Below are positions 11,926 to 62,993 of a stretch of 64,000 bases of DNA, in pieces. The first letter of the stretch is position 1; each line of letters opens with the position of its first letter. The stretch is taken from contig JAAVAO010000051.1 in the NCBI GenBank assembly GCA_014803985.1, forward strand, positions 1 to 64,000, written 5' to 3'. The notes below the pieces were generated by a model. It was not told the DNA's origin. It searched no databases and worked only from the letters and a program-made list of their open reading frames with translations. This stretch comes from Treponema sp. GTDB lineage: Bacteria > Spirochaetota > Spirochaetia > Treponematales > Treponemataceae. The position numbers and the translations under genes are program-made.

Positions 11926-12184
11926 GCAGTGGCGAAAGATACATTGTTCTTCTACTTTTAATTCCTCGACTTTCGCCTCCAGTTTTGCTATCTCGCACGG
12001 CTCAGGCATCGCAAAACTGGCTAAATGTGCGAGCGCATGGTTTTGCCTTTTTCACTGCAACTGGAAGAGTGTTTTTTTTATCTTTTTCAAAACTCGCTTA
12101 TTCATTGCGATTTTTCACTGCGTTGCAAAATCGCGTTTACAGCAATTCAAAAGTTGAAACTTTTTCCATTGCTGTAAATTAAGG
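11926..12184 (+). repeat. Mosaic intergenic repeat: inverted piece of one element plus part of the four-hairpin cassette
   Basis: Positions 11926-11969 are a nearly exact inverted copy of 59147-59190. From about 12003 the sequence runs parallel to 53654-53770. From 12090 it carries the last hairpins of the cassette: H3 at 12107-12134 (GCGATTTT/AAAATCGC) and H4 at 12136-12178 (TTTACAGCAAT/ATTGCTGTAAA). It fills the convergent gap after tex. An 86-codon open frame here only reads through the hairpins and I do not call it a gene. Confidence 0.8.
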
Positions 12185-12278
12185 AAGAATAATCTACAAA
12201 AAGTCTATATGCAGTAAAACCAATGACTATGTTTTGGGAAAGCGTCCTGCATGCACGATGATGATTACAGACTAAAGA

Positions 12279-31462: not shown

Positions 31463-31487
31463 CTTGTGCAATTATAGGAGAAGGGGT

Positions 31488-31604
31488 AAAAAGCAGTTGT
31501 TTATCTTCGCAAGATTTCAGGGAAGCTTGCATATCAACTGCTGCTTTTTATTAAGAAGCAGCATAAAAACACAGTTAAAATTTGAAACTTTTGATTGTGT
31601 TTTT
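31488..31604 (+). promoter_or_regulatory. Two hairpins in the ppx-ppk spacer
   Basis: AAAAAGCAG (31488-31496) pairs with CTGCTTTTT (31541-31549); an alternative uses CAGTTG with CAACTG. AAAAACACA (31565-31573) pairs with TGTGTTTTT (31596-31604), whose 3' arm ends three bases before the ppk GGAGG. The first looks like the ppx terminator. The second could control ppk expression. Confidence 0.5.
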
Positions 31605-31617
31605 ACTGGAGGAAAGA

Positions 31618-40149: not shown

Positions 40150-40938
40150 ATGAATATTTGCTTGTTTTCTGTAGATGAGATAGAAAAACCGCTTTCTTTA
40201 AATGATGAGCGTGGTGTTCACATTTTAAATGTGTTACATAAAAAAGAAGGCGAAAGTTTTTTTGCAGGCATTATAAATGGTTCGTCTGGAATTGCAACCA
40301 TTACAAAAATTACTTCTAATGATATAGAATATACATTTACCCCAAAAAATGATGGTGAAAAACCGCTTTGTCCTCTTAAAATGATTATAGGGTTTCCCCG
40401 TCCAATTCAATTAAAAAGACTTTTGCGCGATATGGCATCCATTGGTGTGGAGGAAGTTTTTCTTATTGGAACTGAACTTGGTGAAAAGTCATATATGAAG
40501 TCAACTCTCTCTTCTCATGATGCTGCATATAAAATGCTTCTTGATGGAACTGTTCAAGCGGCAAGCACATATATTCCGTCTTTGTCTATTCTTCGCGATT
40601 TAAAAGAATGTGTTTCTGTGATGAATCGTGCGCCAAACGCTTCATCTGTTGTTTTAAAGGTTGCGCTTGACAATGTGAATCCTGATACATCGCTGTATAG
40701 CGCACTAAAGGAATCTTGCTTTGGTCAAAAGGGCGTGTGTCAAGGCGGAGTAAATCAAAAAAGGGGGAGTGTAGTTGCGGCGATAGGAAGTGAACGCGGC
40801 TGGACGGACAATGAACGCGCTGTTTTTAAGGCAAACGGATTTTTAAGATGTGGAATGGGTTCTCGCGTAATGCGTACTGAAACCGCTTCAACAGTTGCCG
40901 CTTCTGTAATAATGGCGGAATGCGGTTGGTTGGGTTGA
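40150..40938 (+). CDS. rsmE: 16S rRNA m3U1498 methyltransferase RsmE
   Basis: RsmE methylates N3 of U1498 in 16S rRNA. From ATG 40150 the protein has 262 residues. An N-terminal PUA-like domain includes HILNVLHKKEGESF. The SPOUT knot follows with MIIGFPRPIQLKRLLRDMASIG, AIGSERGWTDNERAVFKANG and RVMRTETASTVAASVI near the end. An upstream in-frame ATG at 40114 lies inside the promoter and is rejected. There is no Shine-Dalgarno sequence; the mRNA is predicted to be leaderless. Confidence 0.92.
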   Translation: MNICLFSVDEIEKPLSLNDERGVHILNVLHKKEGESFFAGIINGSSGIATITKITSNDIEYTFTPKNDGEKPLCPLKMIIGFPRPIQLKRLLRDMASIGVEEVFLIGTELGEKSYMKSTLSSHDAAYKMLLDGTVQAASTYIPSLSILRDLKECVSVMNRAPNASSVVLKVALDNVNPDTSLYSALKESCFGQKGVCQGGVNQKRGSVVAAIGSERGWTDNERAVFKANGFLRCGMGSRVMRTETASTVAASVIMAECGWLG

Positions 40939-40939
40939 C

Positions 40940-41090
40940 GGTTAAAAATAGGCAACTGAGATAGCGTTGCCTATTTTTAATGCGAGTTTTTTCAAAACTC
41001 GCTTATTTATTGCTATTTCTTACTTCGTTACGAAATAGCGTTTTCAACAACTCCCGAATCTGAAGATTCGTTCGTTGTTGAAAAGTAAGA
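40940..41090 (+). repeat. Four-hairpin intergenic cassette (single copy) after rsmE
   Basis: Hairpins in order: H1 40944-40978 (AAAAATAGGCAAC/GTTGCCTATTTTT), H2 about 40983-41002 (GCGAGTTTT/AAAACTCGC), H3 about 41012-41040 (GCTATTTC/GAAATAGC), H4 about 41041-41084 (TTTTCAACAA/TTGTTGAAAA). The arm sequences differ from the copies at 62.5 kb by paired changes. H1 can also serve as the rsmE terminator. Confidence 0.85.
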
Positions 41091-41092
41091 GA

Positions 41093-41135
41093 TATAATGA
41101 AAAAGCAGTCAAAGAATACTGTCTGCTTTTATAGG
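41093..41135 (+). promoter_or_regulatory. Candidate -10 box and start-site hairpin before the HExxH gene
   Basis: TATAAT lies at 41093-41098, just past the repeat cassette, without a good -35. A hairpin AAAAGCAG/CTGCTTTT (about 41104-41133) lies at the predicted transcript start, followed by TATAGGAG. It may be an attenuator or a 5'-stabilising structure. Confidence 0.4.
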
Positions 41136-53487: not shown

Positions 53488-53500
53488 GCATAAATTAGAA

Positions 53501-53790
53501 GATTTAAAACAGGCAACTGAAATTGAGTTGCCCATTTTAATGCGAGTTTTGAAAATGTAAAAAACATTTGCGAAGGCGCAGTGAAAAAGGCAAAATCGCT
53601 CTAATTGTGGTCGCTGCAATAGCAGCGAAAAAAAAATCTATGCCACAATGAGCGCGAAATGCGCGAGCGCATGGTTTTGCCCTGCGACCGTAAGTCGAGA
53701 AATTAAAAGAAAAAGAACACTGTGCCTTTCGCCCTTGCAACTGGAAGATTGTTTTTTTATCTTTCTAAAACTCGCTTATTTACTATCATT
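53501..53790 (+). repeat. Composite intergenic repeat after tsaD
   Basis: The start (53507-53538) is a decayed H1 of the hairpin cassette (AAAACAGGCAACT/AGTTGCCCATTTT), followed by TGCGAGTTTT. Then 53641-53770 is a copy of the element at 59090-59225 (shared GCGCATGGTTTTGCCCTGCG, then CCGTAAGTCGAGAAATTAAA). It ends in AAAACTCGCTTATTTAC, as in the cassette. It lies in the convergent gap before ricT. Confidence 0.75.
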
Positions 53791-62454: not shown

Positions 62455-62459
62455 AAGAA

Positions 62460-62952
62460 GGTTTAAAACAGGCGACTGAAATTGAGTTGCCTGTTTTAAT
62501 GCGAGTTTTTTCAAAACTCGCTTATCAACTGCGATTTCTCACTTCGTTACGAAATCGCTTTTTCAGCAATTCAAAAGTTGAAACTTTTTTCATTGCTGAA
62601 AAGTAAGGAAGGTTTAAAACAGGCGACTGAAATTGAGTTGCCTGTTTTAATGCGAGTTTTTTTCAAAAACTCGCTTATTTACTGCCGTTTTCGCTTGAAA
62701 CTTCGCGCTATGCGCTTGTTGCGAAAGCATTTCATTGCAAAACGGCGTTTTCAGCAACTCCCGAAGCTGAAGATTCGCTCGTTGCTGAAAAGTAAGGAAG
62801 GTTTAAAAACAGCAACTAAATTGGAGTTGCTGTTTTTAATGGCGAGTTTTTTTCAAAACTCGCTTATCAACTGTGATTTCTCACTTCGTTACGAAATCGC
62901 TTTTTCAGCAATGAAAAAAGTTGAAACTTTTTTCATTGCTGAAAAGTAAGGA
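62460..62952 (+). repeat. Three tandem four-hairpin cassettes
   Basis: Units start at GGTTTAAAAC: 62460, 62611 and 62800 (151, 189 and 153 bp). In unit 1: H1 62465-62497 (AAAACAGGC/GCCTGTTTT), H2 62501-62521 (GCGAGTTTT/AAAACTCGC), H3 62531-62558 (GCGATTTC/GAAATCGC), H4 62559-62602 (TTTTCAGCAAT/ATTGCTGAAAA, with inner AAAAGTT/AACTTTT). Unit 2 has a longer H3 region and an H4 of the 41.05-kb type. Open frames across the units are by-products of the hairpins. Confidence 0.92.
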
Positions 62953-62993
62953 AGAAGACTGTATGTTCATCTGCTTGGGTATGTCCACGATTT

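Follow-up and report, generated by a model that had tools for sequence, protein, structure and literature searches.

The recurrence of one fixed order of four hairpins between the genes of a Treponema sp. contig raises the question of whether these hairpins act as RNA or as DNA, and whether they serve the genes beside them or an element that moves among those genes. In the window, by which we mean the whole 64,000-nt stretch of DNA analyzed here, an earlier note had seen an undescribed structured repeat acting in 3'-end formation, in RNA stability or as an sRNA, or alternatively a MITE-like mobile element. Our analysis supports the last of these, a structured, MITE-like mobile repeat. At a probability of roughly 0.6, we read the cassette as a non-autonomous mobile DNA element of ~150 bp, built of four hairpins and specific to the Treponemataceae, which inserts into Shine-Dalgarno sequences and restores them.

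Each unit consists of the four hairpins (H1 to H4) in constant order, followed by a Shine-Dalgarno-like tract that reads AAGGAAGG in the main family of the host genome, and three units lie head-to-tail across 62456-62955 (Table 1). The hairpins are present where they had been placed, in the 40940 and 62460-62955 copies, and fold as written; folded as single-stranded DNA, three full units have z-scores near -10 against dinucleotide shuffles. The copies claimed at 12090-12178 and 53507-53550 are indeed partial, but they extend to 12037-12187 and 53498-53552, and a further copy at 31478-31615, detected with a broader covariance model, had been overlooked. The 3' end of this last copy is TTTTTACTGGAGGAAAGA, the GGAGG of which is the ribosome-binding site of the polyphosphate kinase gene. 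A separate terminator-like hairpin (AAAAAGCAGTC...GTCTGCTTTT) stands at 41098-41133, 3' of the 40937 copy, which therefore sits between a stop codon and a terminator.

Table 1. Copies of the four-hairpin element and associated features; positions are those of the window unless a locus is named.
Feature	Position	Strand	Detail
Truncated copy	12037-12187	+	Right half of long-form H2, then H3 and H4
Diverged copy, absent from the earlier note's list	31478-31615	+	Immediately 5' of polyphosphate kinase ATG (31618)
Single full-length copy	40937-41094	+	Immediately 3' of the stop codon of an RNA methyltransferase gene
Truncated copy	53498-53552	+	H1 and left arm of long-form H2; 3' of a tsaD-like gene
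Tandem copy 1	62456-62612	+	H1 62463-62499, H2 62501-62521, H3 62531-62558, H4 62559-62603
Rfam matches of tandem copy 1	TD-1 62493-62608; TD-2 62459-62553	TD-1 sense; TD-2 antisense	
Shine-Dalgarno-like AAGGAAGG	62605-62612	+	3' end of tandem copy 1
Tandem copy 2	62606-62801	+	H3 ~36 nt longer
Tandem copy 3	62795-62955	+	3' end AAGGAAG (62948-62954)
Long-form H2 and nested-insert sites	53540-53740; 12000-12083; L033:7302-7610; L044:6794-7113		

The repeat is not undescribed. It is the same element as two Rfam families of clan CL00124, namely TD-1 (RF03155), whose model covers hairpins 2 to 4 on the sense strand, and TD-2 (RF03162), whose model covers hairpins 1 to 3 on the antisense strand. 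Rfam treats them as two RNAs, classed as 'Cis-reg' and 'sRNA', respectively, whereas our matches show them to be the two strands of a single DNA element, in which, unlike in Rfam's TD-1, hairpin 1 adjoins TD-1; this unification is new. The window gave no match at the Rfam gathering threshold, and its copies are sub-threshold members obtained at a permissive threshold, with up to 58.6 bits (E = 6e-7) for TD-1 against a gathering score of 64.5. Loci of the denticola group, in contrast, exceed the gathering scores of both families, on opposite strands, with 96-100 bits for TD-1. Matches to TD-2 at the element reach up to 56.7 bits (gathering score 48.7) and are always antisense to the element and to TD-1. 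The primary paper on the two families is reportedly that of Weinberg et al. from 2017.

Further copies, which the earlier note had proposed looking for in the host genome and in other Treponema, were found in both. A first DNA search of the host assembly (2.56 Mb) returned >60 copies, and two covariance models gave at least 147 and at least 148 matches. Many contigs of this assembly (G000) begin or end within copies (C1, C3, C7, C11, C17, C18, C21, C25, C31, C42, C46, C49, C53, and C54), probably because nearly identical copies interrupt the assembly, and the counts are accordingly minimum values. Copies of one host subfamily (nine copies) have a mean identity of 92%, some being identical, and a second subfamily has the same four hairpins with wholly different arms (ATGATAAAAGC...GACTTTTTATGGGAG). 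Within the genus, the family was matched in 90 of 196 sampled genomes; in a class-wide sample it was matched in 23 of 297, all in six genera of the one family Treponemataceae, with no match outside Treponemataceae genera. A 1.1 Mb genome within that family gave no match. Viral contigs showed no match to one H3-H4 pattern, and phage-borne spread was rejected on that result.

With regard to coding capacity, copies of the second subfamily (L054:9564-9726 and others) have a left GGAG and, within H1, an ATG that open a leader frame of ~46 codons, ending within H4 just 5' of the next ribosome-binding site; the frame does not occur in the other families. A conserved small peptide was considered and rejected: a frame (GGAGTTATGATAAAAGC...) spans the second subfamily, yet in the main family the T-runs of H2 vary in length, so there is no common frame. 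A 123-codon open reading frame at 62578 is incidental.

The genomic position of the copies bears directly on their role. In relatives, 20 of 25 copies in G018, all 13 in G021 and 20 of 24 in G393 lie in sense orientation between a Shine-Dalgarno sequence and a start codon. The genes downstream are diverse, with LexA-like, FabZ-like, MurA-like and other products as judged from sequence, and, close relatives excepted, genomes have almost no orthologues among them in common. The picture is different in the host genome: of 65 matches (both families), only 20 have a Shine-Dalgarno sequence and start codon immediately 3', which counts against the mobile-element reading, and arrays of the main family are mostly away from start codons. 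Host arrays in co-directional gaps are biased in orientation to co-transcription (23 vs 7), and the second subfamily has a co-directional gene immediately downstream in all eight scored host loci. The earlier note had placed all clear copies 3' of plus-strand genes in a single orientation; this holds in the window, but in the genome it is a bias only, a co-directional gene lying upstream of 35 of 48 A-type arrays in the host stretches read. A role in 3'-end formation finds no support in the location immediately 5' of start codons in most relatives, or in the separate terminator-like hairpin behind the 40937 copy.

Among the 5'-truncated copies of G018, those at L113, L116 and L120 adjoin promoter-like sequences (sigma-54-like TTGGCACGATTCTTGCA at L113), so transcription would begin there at H2 or H3. 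Retrotransposition as the source of such copies (L113, L115-L118, and L120) was rejected, since promoters adjoin several of the truncation points and no target repeat is left; later deletion is likelier.

Evidence for insertion at ribosome-binding sites, which is new, comes from comparing occupied and empty sites. At dapA, G019 reads CTCAGGAGGAATA-element-AGGAGGAATATATG, with AGGAGGAATA on both sides, probably as a target-site duplication of 10 bp, whereas G015 (CTCAGGAGGTTATGTATG) and G006 (AAGGAGGAATTATG) lack the element, and the site is empty in several relatives. At purC, only G025 among the 18 orthologues examined has the element, lying 3' of a promoter-like TATAAT and 5' of the start codon, and in the rest the ribosome-binding site is plain. 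For 27 copies free of tandem remnants, from genomes of the genus, left and right flanks share a longest run of 6.2, against 4.8 when re-paired (p = 5e-5). Flank matching in G393 is weak (p = 0.03, and 0.13 once tandem remnants are removed), which counts against the mobile reading. The ribosome-binding site stands on both sides of the element, an arrangement that likely arises by target-site duplication. The only coding insertion noticed, at L216:151-317 in G165, lies within an Rpn-like (PD-(D/E)XK) reading frame; no target duplication is visible there and the right end is still Shine-Dalgarno-like, so this end may be part of the element itself.

These positions would also fit a cis-regulatory role, as in the Rfam reading of TD-1, in which leader hairpins would govern the translation or the stability of a regulon. 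The copies lie immediately 5' of start codons, in sense and with a ribosome-binding site at the 3' end, the loops of H3 and H4 are conserved, Rfam's own class is 'Cis-reg', and insertions are shared among members of the denticola group and, at dapA, by three genomes. Against this, the downstream genes are unrelated and not shared between genomes, purC and dapA mostly lack the element, units form tandem arrays of 2-4, A-type copies lie away from start codons, and G-U pairs are scarce. We consider a regulatory leader unlikely.

The scarcity of G-U pairs emerged from the arms, which differ in pairs, as had been noticed. Among 41 host-genome copies, double changes were found in 19 of 35 pairs, and among 58 distinct copies from relatives both sides had changed in 42 of 48. 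In the latter, 95.2% of cells are paired, against 72.8% in shuffled controls, and a test against background gave a covariation score of 0.523, against 0.10 or less with the partners slid. Changes almost always replace one Watson-Crick pair with a different one: in two large alignments, G-U accounts for 1.7% and 2.1% of cells, and G-U stands to A-C at 44:32 and 57:35 (ratio 1.4-1.6). In 18 tRNAs encoded by the same DNA, G-U reaches 9.1% and the ratio is 36:0, although the tRNA finder penalizes A-C and thus partly presupposes none, which leaves the share of G-U as the more reliable comparison. Covariation is therefore very strong, but the G-U share is low rather than RNA-like on the transcribed strand. 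The few G-U pairs, barely more numerous than A-C, argue for pairing in DNA instead of RNA. This evidence that the covariation is not RNA-like is new. Selection on folded RNA, as first proposed for these arms, is thus not supported, and the alternative of DNA pairing that had been offered beside it fits better; a weak RNA-level preference is possible, given summed counts of 101 G-U and 67 A-C.

Conservation of the loops is uneven. Between genomes, the H3 and H4 loops (0.84 and 0.80) are better conserved than their stems (0.67 and 0.60), whereas the H1 loop (0.64, stem 0.59) and the H2 loop (0.60, stem 0.79) are not clearly so. Conservation and pairing together agree better with DNA hairpins that are recognized through a subset of the loops than with selection on an RNA helix or with correction of the arms alone. 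The latter would apply to a mobile or merely dispersed repeat whose arms come to match through template switching from one arm to the other (quasipalindrome correction), the hairpins themselves being free of selection. It would account for strand-symmetric Watson-Crick matching with few intermediates and for nested long-form hairpins, but correction alone predicts neither H3 and H4 loops that are better conserved than the arms nor a four-hairpin order kept across genera, and we regard it as still less likely than a regulatory leader. That the element works in trans as an sRNA, or at RNA 3' ends or as a terminator, is highly improbable: although Rfam classes TD-2 as sRNA, several host copies lie closely behind stop codons (median 37 nt), H2 of some copies fits a terminator pattern and the 40937 copy has terminator-like matches above the shuffled rate (2 vs 0.2), TD-2 matches always fall on the antisense strand of the element, which makes the sRNA that had been suggested unlikely, the triple array shows no excess of terminator-like matches (1 vs 0.8 in shuffles), on which ground a terminator role was rejected, and at purC a terminator between the promoter-like site and the start codon would silence the gene.

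For the mobile DNA element that we favor, the following course is proposed. The element would insert in sense, mostly downstream of the purine tract and upstream of the start codon, and with the target tract on both sides the downstream gene would keep its ribosome-binding site and gain a hairpin-rich 5' leader, probably at a near-neutral effect on that gene. The fresh Shine-Dalgarno-like target at the 3' end could then receive new copies, or units could multiply by tandem duplication or unequal recombination, any of which may have given head-to-tail arrays like that at 62456-62955. The hairpins would have to form in single-stranded DNA, probably for recognition via their conserved loops by a trans-acting enzyme, and we propose that the arms covary because the hairpins are needed in single-stranded DNA, rather than through selection on RNA. 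It is a more tentative proposal, to which we would give less than even odds, that this constitutes a new class of transposable element, one that takes the Shine-Dalgarno sequence as its target, is handled as single-stranded DNA by a putative enzyme via four hairpin loops, rebuilds the ribosome-binding site, and so spreads nearly free of cost through essential operons.

No clear terminal inverted repeat was seen at the element ends read, and the Y1 domain (PF01797) is absent from the carriers G000, G011, G016, G021, and G030. Mobilization by RAYT/IS200 enzymes was rejected as a general answer, because Y1 is missing from several carriers and the existing RAYTs belong to the GGGGACAGACCCC repeat. 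RAYT-type Y1 transposases do occur in Treponema relatives (L135, L136, L142, L145, L152, L157, and L159), and most of these genes have that other short repeat at their flanks, as GGGGACAGACCCC / GGGGTCTGTCCCC or in variant form.

Several known systems invite comparison. REP/BIME repeats with their RAYTs likewise consist of scattered hairpins for which pairing is important in the single-stranded state of the DNA, but several Treponema carriers lack Y1 transposases and the RAYTs present adjoin another repeat. The double-hairpin elements of fungal mitochondria are mobile hairpin pairs with compensatory arm changes; they differ in organelle and lineage, and in having two hairpins, and they are not known to target ribosome-binding sites. 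To our knowledge, there is no sequence relation between the Treponema element and the pneumococcal repeats BOX, RUP and SPRITE. These are short, modular, strongly folded intergenic repeats that can be co-transcribed and are thought to be non-autonomous mobile elements, all of which likens them to the Treponema element (PMC3049150). They are over-represented between convergent genes, whereas the Treponema element is not, and insertion into a ribosome-binding site with restoration was not found for them in the available part of that source (PMC3049150).

Should the mobile-element reading hold, two catalogued 'RNA' families would merge into a single mobile DNA element, and compensatory changes, which usually serve as proof that an RNA is functional, would in this case reflect pairing in DNA. 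Scarcity of G-U pairs offers a simple test for other candidate RNA families. Targeting and restoration of the ribosome-binding site would, if true, be a new way to spread in a compact genome, and an element of this kind would explain the repeat-rich leaders and assemblies of Treponema.

Some hairpins are themselves interrupted. The long form of H2 contains a nested foldback of ~200 nt (GAAAATATAAAAAACATTCGCGAAGGCGCAGTG...) within its loop, and H1 likewise occurs with a similar nested insert (GTACGCAGGGTTGCTTCGCCACCCTGC...); these may represent another repeat, one that enters the hairpins of the element.
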